DNA of 64,000 nt from Pseudomonadota bacterium. GTDB taxonomy: Bacteria > Pseudomonadota > Gammaproteobacteria > Burkholderiales > Rhodocyclaceae. Positions 4,437 through 62,303 of this stretch are shown in pieces. Positions within the stretch are counted from its first letter, which is position 1. Each line of letters opens with the position of its first letter. Made by a program: the position numbers and the translations under genes. The notes under the pieces were generated by a model. The model saw only the letters and a program-made list of their open reading frames with translations, did no database searches and was not told where the DNA came from. The DNA is taken from assembly GCA_018241665.1 (NCBI GenBank), contig JAFEDK010000026.1, forward strand, positions 1 to 64,000, in the 5' to 3' direction.

Positions 4437-5011
4437 CGCGCCCCGCCCGCCAGCGTCTGCACCACTTCGAGGGCCTTGTCCACGTTGGCCACCGGCTGGA
4501 GGCCGGCCACCGTGGCGGCGATGCGACCATCCGGCCGGATCACGAAGGTGGTGCGCTCGGTGAAGGCGTGGTCGATGTCCTTGCCGCGGGAGTCCTTGGC
4601 GCCGCTGCGCGCCTCTCGCACCGCGATGTCGAAGGACTTGGCGATGCGGCCGTCGGCATCCGAGGCGACCGGCAGCTTGCCGGCGCAGAACTCCGGATCG
4701 GCGGAGAACTCGTTGAGGCGGCCGATGCTGTCCAGGGACACGCCGACCACGGTGGCGCCGGCGGCGTTGAACTTGCCCATGTTCTCGGCGAAGGTGTGGG
4801 CCTGCAGGTTGCAGCCGTTGGTGTAGGCCGACGGGTAGAAATACACCACCACCGGCCCCTTCCTGAGGGCGTCCTTCAGGGAATAGGAAAAGGCCTTGCC
4901 GGCCAGCGAGGCCTGGGCCTTGAAGTCCGGGGCAGCGTCACCCTCCTTGAGGGCGGCGGTGGCGGGCACGGCCAGGGCGGCGAGCAAGGCGCCGATCATG
5001 AGGGTCTTCAT
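4433..5011 (-). CDS. Exported peroxiredoxin, AhpC/TSA family (copy 1)
   Basis: About 192 residues. A signal peptide (MKTLMIGALLAALAVPATAA) places this thiol peroxidase in the periplasm. The peroxidatic motif reads YPSAYTNGC with Cys67; a further cysteine in DPEFCAGKL may be resolving. The ATG at 5011 was chosen because it directly precedes the signal peptide. It is closely similar over its length to the protein at 10589-11173, and both sit between a DUF1501 gene and a c4-like cytochrome gene. Likely role: removing peroxide made or met by the neighbouring redox proteins. Confidence 0.9.
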   Translation of the reverse strand: MKTLMIGALLAALAVPATAALKEGDAAPDFKAQASLAGKAFSYSLKDALRKGPVVVYFYPSAYTNGCNLQAHTFAENMGKFNAAGATVVGVSLDSIGRLNEFSADPEFCAGKLPVASDADGRIAKSFDIAVREARSGAKDSRGKDIDHAFTERTTFVIRPDGRIAATVAGLQPVANVDKALEVVQTLAGGAR

Positions 5012-5016
5012 TGGGG

Positions 5017-5400
5017 TCAATCCTGCTTGTAGACGTTGTGGCAAGCCTTGCAGGTCCGGCCGAGTTCGGCGGACGCGGCGGCGGCGCTGTCGAAATCCTT
5101 GGCAGCGACGGTGGTCACGATGCGGGCAGACAAGTCGATGCTCTTCTGGGACATCTTCACGCCGTCCTCGGCATCGCCCTTCTTCACGTAGTGATCCACC
5201 ACTTCCTTGAAGAGCTTCTCCAGCTCCTTGGCATCGGCGGTGGCGGTCTTGGCGTCCTTGATGCCGATGGCGGCGTCGGCGCTCTTGAAGGTGTCTTCCA
5301 CGTTGCGCATGAAGTCTTCGTCCACCGCCCCGGAGGCGGTGAGCGCAGTCGTGGCGAGCAGGCTGGTCAGGGCAAGGCGGAACAATTTTTTCTTGTACAT
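5017..5400 (-). CDS. Cytochrome c'-like periplasmic protein
   Basis: 127 residues with a signal peptide (about 1-25, ending ASG) and a helical body rich in Lys and Ala. The single haem motif CKACH lies at 117-121, ten residues from the end, the arrangement of cytochrome c' / c-556 bundles. ATG at 5400 immediately precedes the signal peptide. It lies between the DUF1501 gene and peroxiredoxin copy 1; the paralogous operon further right has no equivalent here, so it was gained or lost after duplication. Confidence 0.85.
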   Translation of the reverse strand: MYKKKLFRLALTSLLATTALTASGAVDEDFMRNVEDTFKSADAAIGIKDAKTATADAKELEKLFKEVVDHYVKKGDAEDGVKMSQKSIDLSARIVTTVAAKDFDSAAAASAELGRTCKACHNVYKQD

Positions 5401-35786: not shown

Positions 35787-36578
35787 TCAGCGGGCCGCCT
35801 GGGACAGGTACTGCATCATGTTGTCGGCCGCGGACAGGACCTTGGTGTTCATCTCGTAGGTCCGCTGCGCGGCGATCATGTCCACCATCTCCTCGACTAC
35901 CTGCACGTTGGAGCCTTCCAGCGAGCCCTGCTTGAGCTTGCCGAGGCCCTCCTCGCCGGGGTTGGCCTCGGTCGGCGCGCCGCTGGCGGTGGTCTCCTGG
36001 TAGAGGTTTTCGCCGAGGGCCAGCAAGCCGGCCGGATTGACGAAGTTGGACAGGGTGATCTGCCCGACCTCCTTGGCGGTGGTGGCGCCGGACTGGGTGA
36101 CGGACACCGCGCCGGTGTCGCTGATGGTCACCGAGGTGGCGTCGGCGGGGATGGTGATCTCCGGCTGCAGCGGGCGGCCCTGGGTATTCACCAGCTGGCC
36201 TTCGGCATTGACCTGCAGCTGGCCGGCGCGGGTGTAGCCGATCTCGCCGCTGGGCTGCAGCACCCGGAAGAAACCCTTGCCGAGGATGGCCACGTCGAGC
36301 GGCTGGCTGGTGGTCTGCAGGCTGCCGGTGGTGAACACCTTCTGGGTGCCGACCAGGCGCGTGCCGTTGCCCAGCTGCACGCCCACCGGCGCACTCGCCG
36401 CGGCGTTGTTGCCCTGGGTGCCGGGCTGGCGGTCCACCTGGTAGAACATGTCCTCCATGATCACCCGGTCGCGCTTGAAGCCGACCGTGTTCACGTTGGC
36501 GATGTTGTTGGCGATGGCCTGCAGCTTGGCATCCTGGGCCTGCACGCCGGTCTTGCTGATCCACATGGCGGGATTCAT
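35787..36578 (-). CDS. flgG: Distal rod protein FlgG (LfgG)
   Basis: 263 residues, with the N-terminal rod motif (QAIANNIANVNTVGFKRDR) and C-terminal EGSNVQVVEEMVDMIAAQRTYEMNTKVLSAADNMMQYLSQ. Built by type III export. Starts MNPAMWISKTGV. Located between flgH and flgF in the standard order. Confidence 0.96.
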   Translation of the reverse strand: MNPAMWISKTGVQAQDAKLQAIANNIANVNTVGFKRDRVIMEDMFYQVDRQPGTQGNNAAASAPVGVQLGNGTRLVGTQKVFTTGSLQTTSQPLDVAILGKGFFRVLQPSGEIGYTRAGQLQVNAEGQLVNTQGRPLQPEITIPADATSVTISDTGAVSVTQSGATTAKEVGQITLSNFVNPAGLLALGENLYQETTASGAPTEANPGEEGLGKLKQGSLEGSNVQVVEEMVDMIAAQRTYEMNTKVLSAADNMMQYLSQAAR

Positions 36579-42189: not shown

Positions 42190-43176
42190 TTAGCGGGCAG
42201 CGCCCTCCAGCAGACGACGCACGTCGGCGCCCTGACGGGCATCGCCGGCGCGCGGCAGGCCGACATTGACACCGTCGATCAGCGGGGCCACCGCGGCGGG
42301 CATGCCGAAGGTGGCGGACAGGCTGCGGGCCTGCTCGCTGCTCAGGATCAGCAGTTCGATGCGGCGGTTCACCGCCGCGCGGGGGTTCTTCGGGTCGATC
42401 GGCGCCCGGTCGGCCATGCCCACCACCTGCAGCACGCTGTCCGGGCGCATGCCGCCGGCCAGCAGGTTGAGGCGCGCGCGCATGGCCCGCTCGTTGGACA
42501 GGGTCCAGTTGGAATAGGCCGACGGGCCGGCGTCCGCGTACTGCATGGCGTCGGTGTGGCCGAGGATCAGCATCTGGTTCTCGATGCGCGCGAACAGCGG
42601 CCCCATCTTGCGCAGCAGGGCACGGAAGGGTTCGCTGGGCAGCGCCGAGCCACGGGCGAACATGCCGCTCTGGTCGGTGTCGTGGAGCATCACGCGCAGG
42701 CCCTGCTGGCTCACCTCGGTCAGCAGGTTGCCGGCCAGGCCGGCTTCGGCGCTGAGGCGCTTCACCACCTCGGCCAGCTCCTGCATGTCGGCGGTGGTCT
42801 CGAGGCGGCTCTTCGACAGCTGCGGCTCCCGGCCGGCATGGCCATCGCCGTTGGAGCGCAGCCGGCCATTGGGGTCGTCGCCGTGATCGGGCACCGGAAA
42901 GCGGTCGATCAGGCTGCCGCGCGGCCCGCCCACCGCCTCCGGGCGGCGGCCGGCGCCCTCCTCCATCAGCTCGCCGCTGGCCGTGCGGGTGATGTCGGCC
43001 AGTTGCTCGGCGTTGCGGGCGGCCATCACCCACAGCACCAGGAACAGGCACATCAGTGCCAGGCAGAAATCGGCGAAGGCGACCTTCCAGGCGCTGCCGT
43101 GGCCCTCGTCGTCGTGCCGGCGGGAAACCCGCTTGACGACGGCTTCGCCGTGCTTCTTGTCGGCCAGGCTAGGCAT
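42190..43176 (-). CDS. motB: Flagellar motor stator protein MotB (LafU)
   Basis: About 328 residues. One membrane segment FADFCLALMCLFLVLWVMA with the essential proton-carrying Asp36, and a C-terminal OmpA-like peptidoglycan-binding domain (ILGHTDAMQYADAGPSAYSNWTLSNERAMRARLNLL...VVGMADRAP...NRRIELLI). ATG at 43176 overlaps the motA stop by eight bases and has GGAG seven bases upstream; an earlier ATG at 43194 is less likely. Confidence 0.95.
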   Translation of the reverse strand: MPSLADKKHGEAVVKRVSRRHDDEGHGSAWKVAFADFCLALMCLFLVLWVMAARNAEQLADITRTASGELMEEGAGRRPEAVGGPRGSLIDRFPVPDHGDDPNGRLRSNGDGHAGREPQLSKSRLETTADMQELAEVVKRLSAEAGLAGNLLTEVSQQGLRVMLHDTDQSGMFARGSALPSEPFRALLRKMGPLFARIENQMLILGHTDAMQYADAGPSAYSNWTLSNERAMRARLNLLAGGMRPDSVLQVVGMADRAPIDPKNPRAAVNRRIELLILSSEQARSLSATFGMPAAVAPLIDGVNVGLPRAGDARQGADVRRLLEGAAR

Positions 43177-44077
43177 TCGCGCGTGCTCCGCCACGACGCT
43201 GCATCACCGCGTCCGGATCGCCACTGAGGGCCATGATCCAGCTCTCCAGCTCGGCGAAGCTCGGCTTGATGTTGAGCTGCACGAGGCGCCGGCCGGCATC
43301 GATGGACAGCAGCGCCGGCTTGCCGGACACGTGGGTGACCAGCACCACCTTGACGCATTCGAGGGCCGACAGCTCCTGGGTGACCACCTGCTTCATCATG
43401 TTGGCGAGGGGGTCGAAGAGGCCGTAGCAGAAGAAGATGCCGATGAAGGTGCCGACCATCGCCGCCGCCACGCGCTCGGCGATCTCCGCCGAATTGGCGC
43501 CCTCGCCGACGGTGTTCATGGCCATCACGATGCCCAGCACCGCGGCCAGGATGCCGAAGCCCGGCATCGCCTCGGCGATCTTCGACAGGGACTTGGCGGG
43601 CTGATTCAGCTCGTCGTGGATGGACTCCAGCTCCTGCTCCAGCACGCCTTCCAGCTCGTGGGCGTTGATCTTGCCCATCGCCATCAGGCGGAAGTTGTCC
43701 ACGATGAAGGCCAGCAGCTTGGGCTCGTCGAGGATCAGCGGGTAGTTGCGGAACAGCGGGCTGTTGTGGGGCTCCTCCACGTGGGCGTCGAGGGCCTTGA
43801 GGCCGCCGGCGGCGGTCTGCAGCAGCTCGTACATCAGCAGCAGCAGCTGGCGCTGGAACTCGCGCCCCTGCTTGCGGCTGGTGACGATCTGGCGGATCTG
43901 CAGCCAGGTTTCGGCCAGCACGTGGCGCGGGTTGCCGAGCACCAGCGCGCCGAAGGCCGCGCCGCCGATGATCAGCAGCTCGACCGGCTGCCAGATGACC
44001 TTGAGGATGCCGCCGCCGAGCACGAAACCGCCGAAGACGGTGCCGAGGACAATGACGATTCCGATGAGTTGTTGCAT
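43169..44077 (-). CDS. motA: Flagellar motor stator protein MotA (LafT)
   Basis: 302 residues with four membrane segments and the large cytoplasmic loop. Conserved features are LRKVIWQPVELLIIGGAAFG-like TM2 region, NYPLILDEPKLLAFIVDNFRLM, and the TM3-TM4 block MPGFGILAAVLGIVMAMNTVGEGANSAEIAERVAAAMVGTFIGIFFCYGLFDPLA. Position after fliA matches lafS-lafT-lafU. Confidence 0.95.
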   Translation of the reverse strand: MQQLIGIVIVLGTVFGGFVLGGGILKVIWQPVELLIIGGAAFGALVLGNPRHVLAETWLQIRQIVTSRKQGREFQRQLLLLMYELLQTAAGGLKALDAHVEEPHNSPLFRNYPLILDEPKLLAFIVDNFRLMAMGKINAHELEGVLEQELESIHDELNQPAKSLSKIAEAMPGFGILAAVLGIVMAMNTVGEGANSAEIAERVAAAMVGTFIGIFFCYGLFDPLANMMKQVVTQELSALECVKVVLVTHVSGKPALLSIDAGRRLVQLNIKPSFAELESWIMALSGDPDAVMQRRGGARANA

Positions 44078-44102: not shown

Positions 44103-44801
44103 TCAGTGCTGCAGGCACGCCCGCATCTTGCGGAGCGCCCCCTTGTTGATCTGGCAGACCCGCGCTTCGGTGAGATCGAGCACCGCCGCGATCTCCTTCA
44201 GGCTCAGGTCGAATTCGTAGTACAGCTGGATGACCCGCTGCTCGCGCTCGTCGAGGGTCCGCAGGGCCTGCTCGATGCTGCGCCGGCGCACCAGCTGGGC
44301 CTCCGGCGACGGGCCGTCGGCGGACAGGCAGCCCATCTCCTGCAGCACCTCGTCGAAGCTGACCAGCACCTCGGCGTTCTCGGCGAGCAGGAACTCCTGA
44401 TAGCCTTCCGGGCTCAGGCCGAGGGCCTGCATCACCTCCGCCTCGCTGGGCTCGCGGCCGAGGCGGCGGCTGAGGGCGCGGATGCCGTCGCGCAGGCGAT
44501 GGCTCTCCTGGCGCACGCTGCGCGGCCGCCAGTCCTGGCGGCGCAGTTCGTCGAGCACCGCGCCGCGCACCCGCATCGAGGCGTAGGCGCCGAACTTCTC
44601 ATCGGGCGTGCCATAGCGGCGCAGGCAGTCGAGCAGGCCGAGCAGGCCGATCTGCTCCATGTCCTCGCGCTCCATCGCCGGCCCGACCTGGGAGCGCAGC
44701 TGGCGCACGATGCGCTTCACCAGCGGCACGTACTGCAGCAGGTGGCGCTGCTCGACGGCGCCGCTGCCCTGCAGTTCGGCGTACCCCGCGTACATGTCCA
44801 T
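44103..44801 (-). CDS. fliA: Flagellar sigma factor, sigma-28 family (LafS-like FliA)
   Basis: 232 residues with sigma regions 2 (YVPLVKRIVRQLRSQV...MEREDMEQIGLLGLLDCLRRYG...FGAYASMRVRGAVLDELRRQDW), 3 (REPSEAEVMQALGLS) and 4 (LDEREQRVIQLYYEFDLSLKEIAAVLDLTEARVCQINKGAL). Should direct flagellin, cap and junction genes. Encoded between fliL and motA, exactly as lafS in lateral loci. Confidence 0.95.
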   Translation of the reverse strand: MDMYAGYAELQGSGAVEQRHLLQYVPLVKRIVRQLRSQVGPAMEREDMEQIGLLGLLDCLRRYGTPDEKFGAYASMRVRGAVLDELRRQDWRPRSVRQESHRLRDGIRALSRRLGREPSEAEVMQALGLSPEGYQEFLLAENAEVLVSFDEVLQEMGCLSADGPSPEAQLVRRRSIEQALRTLDEREQRVIQLYYEFDLSLKEIAAVLDLTEARVCQINKGALRKMRACLQH

Positions 44802-50404: not shown

Positions 50405-51075
50405 TGGCGCACCTCCTCGCCGTCCTCGGCGAGATGGCTTTCCAGCTGTTCGATGCAGGCGGCGAGGCGCTGGCGGCAACCCGCATCGGCCTCCCGCCCG
50501 TCGGCGCGAACGCGGCATTCGCCGGGTTCCAGGCGCGGATCGGCGATCAGCGTCCAGCGCGCGGCACGGTCCGGCGCCAGCTCGAGGATGCGCTGGCGCT
50601 CCTCGGGATTCAGGAAGACCTCGACTCCTTCGCGGGCCGGCGGCATCGTCGCCAGGGTTTCATCCACCAGTGCGAGCAGTTGCACCGGCTGCAGGGCCAG
50701 TTCGCTACGGATGACCTGGCGGGCCACCTTGGCGACCAGGTCCACCACCTCCCGGCGCAGCGCGCCCTGGTAGTCGGCTTGCAGCTGACGCAGGCCGGCG
50801 ATCAGCGCGTCGATCGGCGCACTCAGCGTGTCGAACTGGGCCAGCACCTCGCGGCGGGCCTCCTCGCGGCCGACGCGCAGCCCTTCCGTGCGGCTGTCGG
50901 CCAGCCCATCCGCGCGGCCCTGGGCCAGGCCCAGCTCATGCCCTTCCCGGTAGCCCCGCTCCATGCCCTGCTGAAAGCCATCGGCCAGCGAGGCCTGGGC
51001 TTCCGCCGCCGCAGCCGGCGAGGCCGCGGCCACCTGGGACAGGGGCGGGAAACGGTAGGGGCGCAGGCTTTTCAT
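50401..51075 (-). CDS. fliH: Flagellar assembly protein FliH (LfiH)
   Basis: 224 residues. N-terminal coiled segment with GXXXG-like repeats (ADGFQQGMERGYREGHELGLAQGRADGLADSRTEGLRVG) typical of FliH, then the C-terminal domain (LVAKVARQVIRSELALQPVQLLALVDETLA). Start overlaps fliG stop by four bases. Confidence 0.93.
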   Translation of the reverse strand: MKSLRPYRFPPLSQVAAASPAAAAEAQASLADGFQQGMERGYREGHELGLAQGRADGLADSRTEGLRVGREEARREVLAQFDTLSAPIDALIAGLRQLQADYQGALRREVVDLVAKVARQVIRSELALQPVQLLALVDETLATMPPAREGVEVFLNPEERQRILELAPDRAARWTLIADPRLEPGECRVRADGREADAGCRQRLAACIEQLESHLAEDGEEVRQ

Positions 51076-52103
51076 TCGACCGTCGCCTCGGCGAACAGCT
51101 GGATCTCGATCTCGCCGGCATCGACGAGCTCCTTGACCTGTCCCATGATCTCGGCGCGCACCTGCTCGACGCGGCTGCGCGGCACCGGGCCGCTGCGCCG
51201 CATCAGATCCTCGAAGCCCTGCGCCTGACGGCGCGGCATCGCACGCAGGATGGCGTCGCGCACCGCCGGCTCGGCGCCCTTGAGGGCGATGGCCCACTGG
51301 TCGAGGGCCACTTCCTCGATGAGGCGGGTGATGACCTCGTCGTTCTGACGGGACAGCACGTAGAAGTCGTACATGCTGACCTCGATCTCCGACACCATTT
51401 CGGGATCGTGGGCGCGCAGCATCTCGACCATCTGCTGGCGGTTGCCGGGCAGCCGGTTGAGGATCTCGGCAGCATGGCGCACGCCCTCCACGCTGGCGCT
51501 CTGCAGGCCCAGGCTGTCCAGGCAGCGGAGCACCATTTCCTCCAGCTCGATCAGCAGCTCGCGGTCGATCTCGGTGAGGCGCGCCACGTTGAGCAGCACC
51601 TGGTCGCGGTTGTCGGTGGGCAGCGCATCGACGATCTCGCTGGCCAGCGCGGCCGGCAGGAAGGCCAGGAACACCGCCTGCATGCGCACGTGTTCGTTGA
51701 TCAGCTGCTCGGCCAGCCACTTCGGCGAGGCCCACTGCAGGCGCGCCATCTTCGGGCGGATCTCGTCGCCGTAGATCTTGTTGAGCACGCTGCCGGCGAT
51801 GTCGGCGCCGAGCGCCAGGTCGAGGGAGCGCCGCAGGTAGGTGCGCGAGGCACCATGCACGCCGCTCTGCTCCCGGTAGTCGTCGAAGAAGCGCTGCAGC
51901 GAGCTCTTCACCGCCTCCACCTTGATGCCGCTCATCCGCGACATCACCTGGGTGACTTCCAGCAGCTCGTCGCGGGACAGGCAGCGCAGCACCGCGGCGG
52001 CGGGCTCCTCGCCCATCGACAGCAGCACGATGGCGGCCTGTTCCACCGGCGTCGGCGTGGCGCCGGGGACGATCATGTCGGGCAGATTATTCGCTTCGGC
52101 CAT
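51072..52103 (-). CDS. fliG: Flagellar motor switch protein FliG (LfiG)
   Basis: 343 residues with N, middle and C domains. EQAAIVLLSMGEEPAAAVLRCLSRDEL at the start, the EHPQ-like NEHVRMQAVFLAFLPAALASEIVDALP in the middle, and the C-terminal torque domain ILRAMPRRQAQGFEDLMRRSGPVPRSRVEQVRAEIM with charged residues retained. Overlaps fliF by 17 bases. Confidence 0.95.
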   Translation of the reverse strand: MAEANNLPDMIVPGATPTPVEQAAIVLLSMGEEPAAAVLRCLSRDELLEVTQVMSRMSGIKVEAVKSSLQRFFDDYREQSGVHGASRTYLRRSLDLALGADIAGSVLNKIYGDEIRPKMARLQWASPKWLAEQLINEHVRMQAVFLAFLPAALASEIVDALPTDNRDQVLLNVARLTEIDRELLIELEEMVLRCLDSLGLQSASVEGVRHAAEILNRLPGNRQQMVEMLRAHDPEMVSEIEVSMYDFYVLSRQNDEVITRLIEEVALDQWAIALKGAEPAVRDAILRAMPRRQAQGFEDLMRRSGPVPRSRVEQVRAEIMGQVKELVDAGEIEIQLFAEATVE

Positions 52104-53757
52104 TTTTCTGCATCCATTGGCGGACCACTTCGGCGACGCGCTCCGGCTCCTTCGCCGACAGCACCTTCAGGTGTTCAACCATCACGTCCACCGGCGAACC
52201 CGGCGCCGGCAGGTCGTAGTTTTCGAGCAGGCCGGCAACCGGCATGCGCTGCGTATCGGGTGCGGCCAGCGCGGCATGGGCGGCCGGCGCGGCGAGTTCC
52301 GGCGTGGCGGGCTCCTGTGCCTCCGCCAGTTCTGCGACGGTCTCGACGGCCGGCAGCGCCAGGCGCTGCTGGGCCAGCTTCATCAGCGGACGGACGACGA
52401 ACAGGAAGGCCAGCAGCAGGCTGATCGCATAGGCCAGCCAGCTGCCCATCTCGATGACGTTGTCGCGCTGCTGCCACCAGGCCACGCTGTCATCCACCGG
52501 CTTGCGGAAGCCGCTGGCGGTGACGACCAGGCTGTCGCCGCGCGCCGCATCGATACCGAGGCCGCTGCGCAGCACCTTGTCCACATTGGCCAGCGCCTCC
52601 GGCGTCCAGGTCTTGCCGTCGGGGGCGGCGGCGTTGTTCATCACCACCGCCACGGAGAGCTTCTTCAGGCGGCCACGGCTGCGCTTCACCTGGGTCACGC
52701 TGCGGTCGTAGGCGTACTGGCGGGTGGTGGCGTTCTTCTTGGTGGTCGCCGCCTCCGGCTCCTCGTCAGCCTTGGCGCCGTCGGCCTTCACCGCCACCGG
52801 ACGGTTGCTGAGGGAGCCCGGCACGCCAATCGCCAGCGGGTCGCGGCCGTTCTCGGTGCGCATCGCCTCGTTGGTGATCTTCGGCGCCTCGCCGTAGCGT
52901 TCGGTGGTTTCCTGAATGCGGTCGTTGTCCACCTCGGCGGTGACGCTGACCTTGTAGTTGCCTGTGCCAAGCATCGGCAGCAGGAGATCCTCGGCATTAC
53001 GCTGGGTTTCGTCGCGGAAGCGGTGGGAGGCGTCGTTGAGCTGGGCGCCCTCGAAGCCCTCGCTGAGATCGACGCGGGCCGACAGCAGGTTGCCGGCCTG
53101 ATCGACCACGCTGACCCGCTGGGGGTCGAGGCTGGCGACGCTGTTGGCGACCATGTTGATGATCGCCGCAATCTGTTCGGGGCTGAGGGAACGGCCGGCC
53201 TTCAGGGCCAGCACCACCGACGCGGTGCTCTTCTCCCCGTCATTGACGACAAAGGACGAGGAGCGCGCGATGGACAGATGCACCCGCGCCGAATCCACCG
53301 CGTCGAGGGTCATGATGCTCTGCACCAGCTCCCCTTCCAGGCCGCGGCGGAAACGCACGTCCTGCACGAACTGGCTGACCCCCAGCGGGTCGTTGCGGTC
53401 CATCAGCTCCAAGCCTTGGGGCAGCTTGGCGACGACGCCCTTGGCGGCCAGCAGCATGCGCACTTCGCCGAGGCGCCGGGACGGCACCAGCACCTGACCG
53501 GAGTCCGGATGGAGGCGGTAGGGAATGCCCTGGGCATCGAGCAGGGCGATCATCTCGGCCGACGCCACCTTCTCGCGGCTGCCGAACACCGGCTTGTAGC
53601 CGGCCTGGTCGTTCCACGCGAACATCAGCACCAGCGCGGTGATCGCCAGCGCCAGCAGCACGATGGGCAGCAGGCCCTTGACGAAACCCGGCGGCAGCTT
53701 CGGCAGGCCACCGGGCGCCCGCAGGCGGGCCAGGGCGGGAGAGAGGGAGAGATTCAC
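52087..53757 (-). CDS. fliF: Flagellar MS-ring protein FliF (LfiF)
   Basis: 556 residues. Two membrane helices, near 28-48 and near 440-465, flank the large periplasmic ring-building domain (KVASAEMIALLDAQGIPYRLHPDSGQVLVPSRRLGEVRMLLAAKG...RRGLEGELVQSIMTLDAVDSARVHL). The C-terminal tail binds FliG. Standard length. Confidence 0.95.
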   Translation of the reverse strand: MNLSLSPALARLRAPGGLPKLPPGFVKGLLPIVLLALAITALVLMFAWNDQAGYKPVFGSREKVASAEMIALLDAQGIPYRLHPDSGQVLVPSRRLGEVRMLLAAKGVVAKLPQGLELMDRNDPLGVSQFVQDVRFRRGLEGELVQSIMTLDAVDSARVHLSIARSSSFVVNDGEKSTASVVLALKAGRSLSPEQIAAIINMVANSVASLDPQRVSVVDQAGNLLSARVDLSEGFEGAQLNDASHRFRDETQRNAEDLLLPMLGTGNYKVSVTAEVDNDRIQETTERYGEAPKITNEAMRTENGRDPLAIGVPGSLSNRPVAVKADGAKADEEPEAATTKKNATTRQYAYDRSVTQVKRSRGRLKKLSVAVVMNNAAAPDGKTWTPEALANVDKVLRSGLGIDAARGDSLVVTASGFRKPVDDSVAWWQQRDNVIEMGSWLAYAISLLLAFLFVVRPLMKLAQQRLALPAVETVAELAEAQEPATPELAAPAAHAALAAPDTQRMPVAGLLENYDLPAPGSPVDVMVEHLKVLSAKEPERVAEVVRQWMQKNGRSE

Positions 53758-53778: not shown

Positions 53779-54120
53779 TTAGAGCGGCAACTTGATGAGG
53801 TCGTCCATCGCACCAACCATCTTGTTGCGGACCTGCATCAGCATCGAGAAGGACAGGCTGGCCTCCTGGCTGGCCAGCATCGCCCCCACCAGGTCGTCGC
53901 TGCGGCCGCTGTCCACGTCGGCCATCCGCTCGCCGGCGACGCGATCCTTCTCATTGACGCCCAGCACGGCCTGCTTGAGGTGCTCACCGAAGCCGTCGGC
54001 TTCGGGGCTGGCCGCATCCAGCGGGTTGGCCACGGGCAGGGACGGCTCGACCGCCGGCAGGCTGCCCTGCAGTTTCATCAGGTCGGCGCCGATCGACGCC
54101 AGCATTTCAGTCACCACCAC
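53779..54120 (-). CDS. fliE: Hook-basal body protein FliE (LfiE)
   Basis: About 113 residues. C-terminal motif GFGEHLKQAVLGVNEKDRVAGERMADVDSGRSDDLVGAMLASQEASLSFSMLMQVRNKMVGAMDDLIKLPL is characteristic. The start region has three GTG codons in a row (54120, 54117, 54114) after AGGAG; the middle or last gives better spacing. An ATG at 54105 is also in frame. First gene of fliEFGHIJ; its leader contains a c-di-GMP riboswitch. Confidence 0.93.
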   Translation of the reverse strand: MVVTEMLASIGADLMKLQGSLPAVEPSLPVANPLDAASPEADGFGEHLKQAVLGVNEKDRVAGERMADVDSGRSDDLVGAMLASQEASLSFSMLMQVRNKMVGAMDDLIKLPL

Positions 54121-54588
54121 GCACTCCTTCAGAAAGGGAACCCCGGCTCACCGCCACCGATCGACGCCTTTTTCCGCTCGATACAAATTCATCGAGCGAT
54201 TTGCATCACGGTTTTTTGGGCAAGACAATTCCCCGCCCGCAACTCAAGGCAAATAGAAAACAAGAACGAATTGATCAATGAGTAAATTGGCCGCCCAATA
54301 AGGCTCAATTCAAATACGGACGCAAAAAGCCCCCGCCGGACACATCATGGCGAATAGGATCCGAATTGAAAAAGCGGATCGGGGCGCGGCGTTCGGAAAG
54401 CATGCGGACGAACCGATGCCATGGACGGCCAAGGCGCGTATTCAGACGAGAATGTGACAGTTCATGCGCTTTCCCTCATCGATGTGCTCGGGACGCACAC
54501 ATGGGAAAGACGAGCCGCAGCCGCCAGGAAGGCGACAGCACAGACCCGGCGCGGCGTGCAGGCATGGCCAGCACGGACAACAACCGGT
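54121..54588 (-). other. Long untranslated leader between the riboswitch and fliE
   Basis: About 470 bases with no convincing gene on either strand. It is less GC-rich than the flanks. Visible structures are a seven-pair hairpin (54177-54197) just upstream of the fliE ribosome site and a six-pair hairpin at 54357-54379. LafK, found at this place in lateral loci, is missing, and no remnant of it was recognised. Confidence 0.6.
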
Positions 54589-54608
54589 AGAACCGAGACA
54601 GCGGTTCT
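54589..54608 (-). promoter_or_regulatory. Hairpin directly after the riboswitch aptamer (possible expression platform)
   Basis: Seven bases pair perfectly (AGAACCG with CGGTTCT, loop six) starting two bases after the aptamer end on the minus strand. There is no U-run, so it is not a plain terminator. An alternative pairing of GGTT in the aptamer 3' end with AACC of this hairpin could compete with it, which is speculative. Confidence 0.45.
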
Positions 54609-54610
54609 TG

Positions 54611-54692
54611 CCTGGCAACCCCGCTATCGTACCCGTGAAGGGCTTTAGACCGGAGGCTTTGCGACCCCGTCTTTCGAACGGGTGTGCCCAAA
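54611..54692 (-). ncRNA. Cyclic di-GMP-I riboswitch (GEMM-I)
   Basis: The minus strand carries the hallmark elements in order: GGGCACACC, a stem with the UUCGAAAGA tetraloop segment, GUCGCAAAGCCUCCGGUCUAAA, a variable stem, and UAGCGGGGUUGCC. These correspond to the conserved c-di-GMP-I aptamer (Vc2 type), including the GAAA loop and its receptor. The closing helix UUUGG/CCAGG sets the ends. Oriented toward fliE, about 490 bases away. A sigma-70-like promoter lies about 30 bases upstream. Confidence 0.88.
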
Positions 54693-54728
54693 TTTAAGTT
54701 TTCGCGGTTTTGGTCGCGAGTTGGACGG

Positions 54729-54757
54729 ATTATGCCTACAAGCTCTCAGGCAAGCAA
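54729..54757 (-). promoter_or_regulatory. Sigma-70 promoter for the riboswitch leader
   Basis: On the minus strand: TTGCTT (54757-54752), 17-base spacer, CATAAT (54734-54729). The start near 54722 leaves about 30 bases before the aptamer. It is a good match for a housekeeping promoter, suggesting this operon is not driven by sigma-54. Confidence 0.62.
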
Positions 54758-54961
54758 TCATTTTTTTCAATTTACACCCAACCTGAATTAATCGAATGGC
54801 ACACCGCCAATTCCTGTTGCGCCAAATCGAATTAGACCGCAAACTAAAAAACGATTAGCCCCTAATTCCTCCGGCAATAAGCAGAGCCGAGAGCGCCATT
54901 TGCGGGCGAAACGCGACCGGCTTTCGGCCTGAATCACCGGGCTATTATTGGTAATCCAGAC

Positions 54962-55816
54962 ATGCAGAAATCCGCAGCACCGCGCGGAGGGGTGTCGCTC
55001 GATCCTCTCTCGCTAGGGCGCCCACTCCACCTGCTCGACCGCTTCACCGCGCTCGCCCGGGACGATCTCGACGAGGCTTTCCGCAGCAGCCTGAACCGCC
55101 GCTACCGCGCGCAGTTCGAAGTGGCCGAGGTGCGCCTCGCGCCGCTCGACACGCTGCCCGAACGCGGCCGGTGGACCGGCTATGCGCACGAACAGGGGCG
55201 CATCGACTTCACACTGGACCGGTCTCTGCTGCTGGAAGCCCTCGATTACCGCTACGGCAGTCATCCTGCCGCCCTGGGCAGCCCGCGGGATGCCGCGCCG
55301 GTGACGGCCACCGAGGAACGCCTGGCGGCCCTGCTCGGGCGCCGCTTCGTTGGCGTACTCGTCGAGCGCCTGGAAGGACGCACCCCGTCCCACGACGGCA
55401 GCGCCCACACCGGGCGCCTGCTCGCCGATGCGACGACACCGCTGCGCCGCCAGGGCGCCTGGGCCTTGCGCGTGGCCGTGCGCGAACGCGTCCATGACAT
55501 CGACGGCGCCATGTATTTCCTGCTCGAGGATGCCTGGCAGCGCCACCTGTTGCAGCAACTCGCGCCCCTGCGGGAGCGCCCCGCCGAGTCGGCCACGGCG
55601 CAACCCTTCGCGCACCGCCTGCCGCTGGCACTGACCGCCCGCCTGCTGGAGAAGGACATCCCGCTGGGGCGCCTGCTCGACCTGAAAGTCGGCGACGTGA
55701 TCCCGGTGAGCATGGGGGTCTCCGACGTGCTGATCGACGATTCCCGGGTGTTCACGGCCCAGGTCGTGGAGCACAAGGGCAAGCTTTGTTTAACCGCTTT
55801 TGAAGATGTGGAGTGA
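54962..55816 (+). CDS. fliM: Flagellar motor switch protein FliM (LfiM), N-terminally short
   Basis: 284 residues against about 330 in ordinary FliM. The conserved CheY-binding start (EIDALL) is absent; the protein begins MQKSAAPRGG followed by PLSLGRPLHLLDRFTALARDDLDEAF. The middle domain and C-terminal FliN-like domain (LPLALTARLLEKDIPLGRLLDLKVGDVIPVSMGVSDVLIDDSRVF) are present. This shortened form is consistent with a lateral-type switch that may not respond to CheY-P. No good ribosome site precedes the ATG. Confidence 0.88.
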   Translation: MQKSAAPRGGVSLDPLSLGRPLHLLDRFTALARDDLDEAFRSSLNRRYRAQFEVAEVRLAPLDTLPERGRWTGYAHEQGRIDFTLDRSLLLEALDYRYGSHPAALGSPRDAAPVTATEERLAALLGRRFVGVLVERLEGRTPSHDGSAHTGRLLADATTPLRRQGAWALRVAVRERVHDIDGAMYFLLEDAWQRHLLQQLAPLRERPAESATAQPFAHRLPLALTARLLEKDIPLGRLLDLKVGDVIPVSMGVSDVLIDDSRVFTAQVVEHKGKLCLTAFEDVE

Positions 55817-61478: not shown

Positions 61479-62303
61479 ATGGCCGCAGCCACCGCATCCC
61501 ACCTCAACCCGCTGGCGCGGGATTTTCTCGCCCGTCTGCCGCAGGAACCCGTCCCCGGCAAGCAGTTGCACCGTACGGAGAATGGCGCGGTGGTCGGCGA
61601 CTGGTTCGGCTTCGAGCTGTCCAGCGCCTTCCAGCCCATCGTCGATGCAACCAGCGGCGCCGTCGCCGGCCGCGAGGCCTTCCTGCGCAGCCATGGACCG
61701 GACGATGACGGCCTGTCGCCGTGGACGCTGTTCTCCACCGCCGCCGAGGATGCCCGCCTGATCGCCCTCGACCGCCTGGCGCGTACGCTACACCTGCTCA
61801 ACGCGCTGGCCGCCGGCAACGACGTGCCTCTCTTCCTCAACGTGCACGGCCGCCTGCTGGCCGCCGTCGGCGACGACCACGGCCACGCCTTCCGCCGGGT
61901 GGTGGACGCCCTCGGCGTGGCGCCGGACAGCATCGTCATCGAGACCCCGCCGGAAGCCAGCGCCCAGCCGGATCTGCTGGCCTTCGTGCTGCGCAACTAC
62001 CGCAACAACGGCTTCCGCGTCGCCGTGAACGTGGAATCCCCCGCCCAGTGGCAGGCCATCGCCAACACCGTATGGCCGCAGTTCGTGAAGGTGGACCGGC
62101 GCAAGCTCGGCAGCGGCGCCGAAGCCCACGAACGCCTGAAGTGGCTGGCCGCCCTGCGCGAGGACGCCCACATCATCGTCACCCACGTGGAAGAGCCCGC
62201 CCCGGAACTGGCCGCCGAGCATGTGCTGCTGCAGGGCTACGCCTACGGCCACCCGGTCGGGGCGACGGCATTCGCGCAGGAACAGCAAACGAGCACCGGC
62301 TGA
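61479..62303 (+). CDS. Degenerate EAL-domain protein
   Basis: 274 residues, cytoplasmic. The domain is recognisable by FQPIVDATSGAVAGREAFLRS (residues 51-71), LFLNVHGRLL, IVIETPPEA, FVKVDRRKL and LLQGYAYGHP. The EAL signature reads E66-A-F, and the metal-binding DDFG block is replaced by NVES around 184-187, while N121, E155, K204 and D206 remain. Hydrolysis of c-di-GMP is therefore unlikely; binding or protein-protein control is possible. It has its own good ribosome site (AAGGAG) and lies 144 bases after flhA in the same direction. Confidence 0.85.
   Translation: MAAATASHLNPLARDFLARLPQEPVPGKQLHRTENGAVVGDWFGFELSSAFQPIVDATSGAVAGREAFLRSHGPDDDGLSPWTLFSTAAEDARLIALDRLARTLHLLNALAAGNDVPLFLNVHGRLLAAVGDDHGHAFRRVVDALGVAPDSIVIETPPEASAQPDLLAFVLRNYRNNGFRVAVNVESPAQWQAIANTVWPQFVKVDRRKLGSGAEAHERLKWLAALREDAHIIVTHVEEPAPELAAEHVLLQGYAYGHPVGATAFAQEQQTSTG

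Follow-up and report, generated by a model that had tools for sequence, protein, structure and literature searches.

A c-di-GMP-I riboswitch and a conserved, putatively translational platform in the fliE leader of a lateral-type flagellar locus

The second messenger c-di-GMP is best known to act on flagella through proteins. The locus studied here raises the question whether it also addresses the first structural genes of a flagellar system at the level of RNA and, if so, how an aptamer located several hundred nucleotides ahead of fliE could bring this about. The window analyzed is a stretch of 64,000 nucleotides (64 kb). An earlier note on this DNA had described a GEMM-I aptamer with a matching closing helix on the minus strand between the divergent fliE and fliM operons, had proposed a search with the covariance model RF01051 and had left the mechanism open.

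The proposed search bore out class, strand and position of the aptamer. With cmscan on the entire 64-kb window, RF01051 (c-di-GMP-I, GEMM-I) was matched at 54698-54611 on the minus strand with 66.7 bits (E 7.2e-11) at a curated cut-off of 35 bits, the match covering model positions 1-87 of 87, that is the full, not truncated length, and it was the sole RNA family above threshold. The closing helix is readable as UUUGG/CCAGG, including two G-U pairs. The GGCA core, the CGAAAG loop, CGGGGTCGCAAAG and AGCGGGG do not vary among the 14 aptamers compared, all of which stem from lateral loci; the CGAAAG loop provides the GNRA tetraloop in every row, its receptor side being placed via the model alignment only. 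Equally invariant, in 14 of 14, are the aptamer columns G11/G12, A39 and C84, which we take to be the ligand-contacting G20, A47 and C92 in Vc2 numbering. It is near certain that the element is a true member of the RF01051 riboswitch class, and binding of c-di-GMP is predicted for it. The same genome contains a second c-di-GMP-I riboswitch (L003 6123-6211; G000:C10:254122-254210, minus strand; 87.4 bits) that lies ahead of an ORF whose putatively secreted product has CxxCH haem-type motifs.

The operon behind the aptamer starts with fliE, the start codon of which (54120) lies 490 nt beyond the aptamer end at 54611, the distance given earlier, while fliM and fliN lead the divergent plus-strand operon (Table 1). 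As had been claimed, the context is that of lateral flagella. The genome encodes two FliF proteins that are 34% identical, the second of them outside the lateral locus and thus indicative of a second flagellar set, and the cluster in the window has a sigma-28 factor, a MotA and a MotB of its own (44103-44801, 43169-44077 and 42190-43194). The lateral type is supported by the second FliF elsewhere in the genome and by the MotB from the window, which scored best against LafU, yet below the cut-off of the LafU model. In the distant lateral locus G198 (FliF 42%) a gene for a sigma-54 activator is situated between fliM and fliE (PF00158, 223.5 bits). No such gene for LafK stands beside fliE here: the activator domain PF00158 was not detected in the 64-kb window, the nearest instance on the contig being located at 146 kb, and one is encoded on contig C44, at a distance of about 2 kb from the genome's other fliF. 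The "LafK position" is therefore empty of LafK and it is the riboswitch that sits there, at the position which the earlier note had named. FlhDC was considered as a lateral-specific regulator and rejected; FlhD occurs in 18 of the 23 genomes of the genus, including 14 of the 19 without lateral FliF, and is therefore no marker of the lateral locus. An EAL-domain protein (PF00563, 63.6 bits) is encoded after flhA in the divergent operon (61479-62303, plus strand). Its EAL motif reads REAF and a DDFGTG-like motif was not seen by eye, so that, instead of acting as a phosphodiesterase, it may be a degenerate sensor or regulator.

Table 1. Positions of the features discussed, numbered along the window
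Feature	Position	Strand	Evidence and remarks
fliM, head of the divergent fliMNPQR-flhBA operon	54962..55816	+	PF01052; gene order in relatives from tblastn
Promoter of the sigma-70 type, TTGCTT-N17-CATAAT, 5' of the aptamer	54729..54757	-	sequence reading
c-di-GMP-I (GEMM-I) aptamer	54611..54698	-	RF01051, 66.7 bits, full length
Hairpin SL1, directly 3' of the aptamer	54589..54608	-	7 bp; 100% of cells paired in four Zoogloea; two pairs changed on both sides
Hairpin SL2, outer CCGG/CCGG and inner CGTGC.GGC	54546..54587	-	96.9% of cells paired; outer helix invariant
Hairpin SL3, GTCGCC/GGCGGC	54520..54536	-	six pairs invariant in 4/4 Zoogloea; covariation uninformative either way
Hairpin SL4, CTTTCCC pairing with GGGAAAG (holds the Shine-Dalgarno sequence)	54469..54509	-	predicted fold; 100% of cells paired
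7-codon leader ORF ATGAACTGTCACATTCTCGTCTGA (MNCHILV)	54442..54465	-	Shine-Dalgarno dG -6.1; start, length and stop kept in 4/4 Zoogloea
fliE, first gene of the operon	53779..54120	-	PF02049, 63.3 bits
fliF (lateral type)	52087..53757	-	PF01514, PF08345, TIGR00206
fliG	51072..52103	-	PF01706, PF14842, PF14841
fliH, fliI, fliJ	after fliG to about 48648	-	assigned by gene order and ORF list

The switch is not a peculiarity of one genome. Among the 23 Zoogloea genomes that made up the genus set (Zoogloea sp. LCSB751, G006, is the named relative), four encode the lateral FliF at an identity of at least 94%, and all four carry RF01051 just upstream of fliE. Nine further switch-bearing loci of the same FliF group stem from six other genera and one MAG. 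Eight of the 22 named loci found via FliF have the switch, namely three of the Zoogloea type, Ramlibacter, Pelomonas, two Ideonella and one Steroidobacteraceae MAG, as do four (G175, G150, G180 and G025) of ten loci from the same family, nine of which have FliF proteins 64-68% identical and the tenth of which is the distant G198. In G025 two c-di-GMP-I riboswitches are arranged back to back, each pointing towards one of the genes fliE and fliM; they occupy positions 5018-5105 (plus) and 4578-4665 (minus) of L146 in the fliM-fliE gap, and over long stretches their platforms are identical by eye. Close pairs of c-di-GMP-I riboswitches were also noticed elsewhere, a divergent one in the Zoogloea-genus genome G005 (C41:35925-36004, minus, and 36244-36328, plus) and a tandem one in G1055 (C7:719338-719423 and 719560-719649, minus). 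In the family with lateral loci of the Massilia/Janthinobacterium type, lateral FliF was found in 145 of 392 genomes at E 1e-150, and in none of the 56 of these 145 that were examined did a switch lie beside fliF, in a survey run with stricter filters by which weak matches can be lost. The switch was likewise absent from all 11 named loci of this type (0 of 11), some from the same strains as among the 56, and no switch was present beside the lateral fliF of two f27 genomes. In genus g6 (L142 4305-8295, L145 4269-8200) the lateral locus is arranged differently, with three ORFs that resemble flagellin genes and each other by eye between flhA and fliE, and with fliM not adjacent to fliE.

The distribution is clustered and resembles that expected for a single origin. 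In a FliF tree of 51 rows, midpoint-rooted, with 11 of 44 inner branches open and with near-copies among the rows, the 13 switch-bearing rows require two label changes (2-3 upon bootstrapping) as compared with a mean of 11.7 for shuffled labels. G1055 has the single switch-less FliF within the switch-bearing group; a remnant aptamer was sought by eye in its fliM-fliE gap and not found, the six RF01051 matches of this genome being located on other contigs. The simplest reading of the history of the switch is one gain and one loss, with the deeper forks partly open.

Transcription of the leader would start at a sigma-70-type promoter that the earlier note had called good. Its position holds, with TTGCTT at 54757-54752, a spacer of 17 nucleotides and CATAAT at 54734-54729, and -10 element and spacing are identical in all four Zoogloea loci, the other three of which have TTGCCT as -35 element. 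Its strength as a match does not hold: the score in the window was reached by 74 of 300 shuffles and is thus not above chance; the scores of the three Zoogloea relatives were equalled in 22, 23 and 10 of 300. A promoter of the sigma-54 type, sought over 150 nt upstream, was discarded, with agreement at 6-8 of 11 positions at best (raw counts). On the 5' side of the promoter the block TAATTCGATTTggCGCAACAGG (54834-54813, minus) hardly varies among the four Zoogloea loci and is possibly an activator site.

What lies between aptamer and fliE is by no means featureless. The Zoogloea sequences remain well conserved for about 170 nt past the aptamer, with a mean column identity of 92% over 54740-54440, and conservation falls after about 54440. 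The conserved part can be folded into the four hairpins SL1 to SL4 (Table 1). From the aptamer to the Shine-Dalgarno sequence 98.8% of the cells are paired across the four Zoogloea sequences, and three pairs have changed on both sides, all of them in SL1 and SL2. The inner helix of SL2 accounts for one of these changes among its eight pairs, besides four one-sided variants and one pair that departs by an unpaired cell, while in SL4 ten of 13 pairs are invariant, three vary on one side and none has changed on both. For four of five covariation measures the observed value was reached in 14 of 500 shuffles; the fifth, concerned with further pair types, does not stand out from the shuffles (245 of 500). 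When the partner strand was slid by 1-3 columns, pairing dropped to 37-46%, a drop that is partly due to the structure having been taken from the window's own sequence. Outside Zoogloea the corresponding stretch of the leader is no longer alignable by eye.

In spite of this divergence, one feature recurs at nearly constant distance. A Shine-Dalgarno sequence followed by ATG is present 134-166 nt after the aptamer in eight of nine lineage representatives, which were drawn from 14 leaders by retaining one of the four from Zoogloea, one of G150 and G180 and the fliE-side one of G025; the MAG locus L127 counts among them through the start of fliE itself. The test demanded a Shine-Dalgarno dG of at most -4 and an ATG 130-170 nt past the aptamer. 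Dinucleotide shuffles gave a mean of 0.59, and none of 1000 reached eight. As the pattern had first been spotted by eye and then been tested, a control was run in which any 40-nt window could be chosen freely, again with a clear outcome (eight versus a mean of 2.0; 0 of 500 shuffles). At a dG of at most -5 six of the nine representatives remain (0 of 1000 shuffles). The exception is Pelomonas (L123), which has no such pair at the set threshold and an ATG with poor Shine-Dalgarno sequence at 128 nt. In the predicted folds of 13 of 13 leaders the Shine-Dalgarno sequence is mostly paired (mean probability 0.59-1.00, raw values). A start codon and a Shine-Dalgarno sequence with a predicted place in a hairpin, both features of a translational riboswitch, are present in the platform. 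Of the RF01051 loci of the family that are not flagellar, 37 of 53 have the Shine-Dalgarno sequence and ATG of an ORF of at least 80 codons within 210 nt, and a translation-type platform therefore fits the surroundings. The sequence comparison provides good support for regarding the Shine-Dalgarno-ATG pair about 150 nt past the aptamer as the expression platform of the 490-base leader, and its conservation points to translation rather than termination. With respect to the mechanism, the earlier note was correct in seeing no strong terminator and missed this pair, conserved in eight of nine lineages.

What does the start codon open? In L127 it is that of fliE, 148 nt past the aptamer and beside a hairpin CTCTCC-GTGA-GGAGAG. 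Elsewhere it opens a short ORF of 5-61 codons. The fliE-side ORF of G025 comprises 61 codons and shares 11 nt with the start of fliE in an overlap; that on the fliM side has 38 codons and stops 45 nt before fliM. In Ramlibacter and the two Ideonella species 190-200 nt separate the ORF stop from the gene, and in Zoogloea, G175, G150 and G180 ORFs of 7-8 codons are followed by gaps of 319-387 nt (319-353 nt to fliE within Zoogloea, 321 nt in the window). The leader peptides are unlike between lineages. Coding selection on the ORF was considered and dismissed: besides the differing peptides, the ORFs of the two Ideonella species show two base differences over their final 19 codons, counting the stop, and each of them changes an amino acid, so that this end appears to be constrained as DNA or RNA and not as peptide. 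What selection seems to preserve is the initiation site and not a peptide.

Taken as a whole, we favor with modest confidence a switch that acts at the level of translation, is OFF at high c-di-GMP and controls fliE either directly or by way of a leader ORF. The c-di-GMP-I riboswitch in the 5' leader of fliEFGHIJ would leave the translation start about 150 nt further on open when c-di-GMP is low; when it is high, the folded aptamer would favor the hairpin holding the Shine-Dalgarno sequence and the start would be closed. In L127 the gated start would be that of fliE, resulting in direct control. For the other leaders we infer that translation of the ORF behind the gated start (seven codons in the window) would set the expression of fliE, through ribosome coupling where ORF and fliE overlap or almost meet and, as a guess, through survival of the transcript where the ORF ends some 320 nt short of the gene.

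c-di-GMP generally lowers motility, which argues for the OFF sign and against its opposite. The sign is probably OFF and was so chosen because of the Shine-Dalgarno hairpin, this usual effect on motility and the OFF action of the Cd1 switch. Alternative pairing between aptamer and platform did not exceed dinucleotide shuffles in 13 leaders (p 0.035-0.97), and the sign therefore draws no firm support from structure. A segment scan over nine representatives, in which 20 segments were tried, yielded z values of 1.9 for the aptamer 5' strand (GGGCACAC with GTGTGC) and of 2.6 for CGAAAGACGGG. Direct competition between aptamer and platform, at chance for the set, was kept only as a candidate; the candidate competitors, in which GGGCACAC or GAAAGACG of the aptamer would pair with the anti-Shine-Dalgarno side, would give OFF. 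The opposite sign, with c-di-GMP freeing the Shine-Dalgarno sequence and its higher levels leading to the formation of lateral flagella on surfaces or in flocs, is in our view unlikely. It is true that no pairing was found that would fix the sign, that both signs occur among c-di-GMP-I switches (PMC6366702) and that Vc1-dependent expression in V. cholerae drops when c-di-GMP is lowered (PMC4744006); the switch on the flagellar operon of C. difficile, however, is OFF (PMC5386303), and so would be the outcome of the candidate pairings, even though as a set they are not above chance.

It is likewise improbable that the leader is an RNA standing by itself or a unit uncoupled from fliE, its transcript ending or decaying before fliE, which would then possess a promoter of its own in the 320-nt gap. 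Free-standing c-di-GMP-I RNAs are known in Bdellovibrio, the loss of conservation after about 54440 would be in line with such an arrangement, and both Ideonella species have a sigma-28-like site TTTACTTT-N11-GCCGTTAC on the way from the switch to fliE (L126 and L132, about 293-327 nt past the aptamer; equalled by 9 and 16 of 150 shuffles). In the four Zoogloea gaps, however, no sigma-70, sigma-28 or sigma-54 site rose above shuffles, and an additional promoter there was rejected as not above chance. Moreover, the association of switch and fliE is kept across the FliF group, L127 has the switch directly on fliE and the leader ORF of G025 overlaps this gene. A Rho model was also considered; the best 78-nt C/G ratio past the leader ORF amounts to 1.4 to 2.75, with 1.81 in the window, raw values that speak neither for nor against it. 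Very unlikely is attenuation, in which bound c-di-GMP would form a terminator past the aptamer and halt transcription before fliE: Cd1 is the closest functional precedent on a flagellar operon in the accounts drawn upon (PMC5386303) and four terminator-like sites occur over 54000-55000 on both strands (shuffle mean 1.7, sd 1.2), three on the minus strand and one right after the aptamer (54596-54584, tail TTGTTGTCCG), but all four are weak, none of SL1 to SL4 in the window has a clear U-tract behind it, no stem with a good U-tract is found between 54611 and 54440 of the window, in agreement with the earlier note, and a conserved Shine-Dalgarno-ATG pair downstream is not expected for a pure terminator switch.

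Translational control through the start about 150 nt past the aptamer can be extended, tentatively and with less confidence, to a wider picture, in which one group of lateral flagellar loci has lost LafK from its position, an RNA switch acquired once has taken its place, and the start under its control usually belongs to a throw-away leader ORF that gates the basal-body operon. If true, this would be a c-di-GMP riboswitch acting through a leader ORF, and its doubling in G025 would place both divergent flagellar operons under the second messenger at the RNA level. In Zoogloea and related Proteobacteria the arrangement would give c-di-GMP direct access, by way of RNA, to the first structural genes of lateral flagella, and this at a locus without the usual activator gene. 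Furthermore, the natural series from a switch on fliE itself via an overlapping ORF to a 7-codon ORF 320 nt away renders riboswitch action at a distance testable.

Among the matches listed from the open-access literature, judged by titles and the beginnings of abstracts, none describes a c-di-GMP riboswitch at a lateral flagellar locus, in keeping with the earlier statement that no such case had come to attention; on an early flagellar operon Cd1 is known. Among the known systems considered, this switch and that of Mycobacterium tuberculosis ppe2 come closest. Cd1 precedes the flgB operon of Clostridioides difficile, ends transcription and lies within the first 160 nt of a leader that continues for a further 338 nt past the termination site (PMC5386303). 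The system described here shares with it the aptamer class, the early flagellar operon and the long leader and differs by the absence of a strong terminator, by the conserved Shine-Dalgarno-ATG pair about 150 nt on, and by belonging to another phylum and to a lateral-type system. A translated leader under riboswitch control, whose role here would be analogous, is found at ppe2 of Mycobacterium tuberculosis, where a B12 riboswitch controls a leader the translation of which the gene requires, mainly via termination-reinitiation (PMC11260477); ligand and aptamer are different, and the gaps in our set extend from an 11-nt overlap to 387 nt. In the SAM-II switch of Sinorhizobium meliloti metA the Shine-Dalgarno sequence is likewise part of the switch and the protein start lies further downstream, such that translation is controlled "at a distance" (PMC9373788), but this distance is 74 nt and a second AUG is in frame there, whereas up to several hundred nucleotides and an intervening stop codon separate the two here. 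Vc1 of Vibrio cholerae gbpA is, as described, a proteobacterial c-di-GMP-I switch without apparent terminator as well; it also has no apparent anti-Shine-Dalgarno sequence (PMC4744006), whereas a Shine-Dalgarno hairpin is predicted in the present case. A long, dual-acting platform has been reported for the c-di-GMP-I switch Bc1 of Bacillus thuringiensis (PMC11218506). Seen against these systems, the element at the lateral locus belongs to an established riboswitch class, while its genetic setting is new and its conserved platform of the translational type is unusual.
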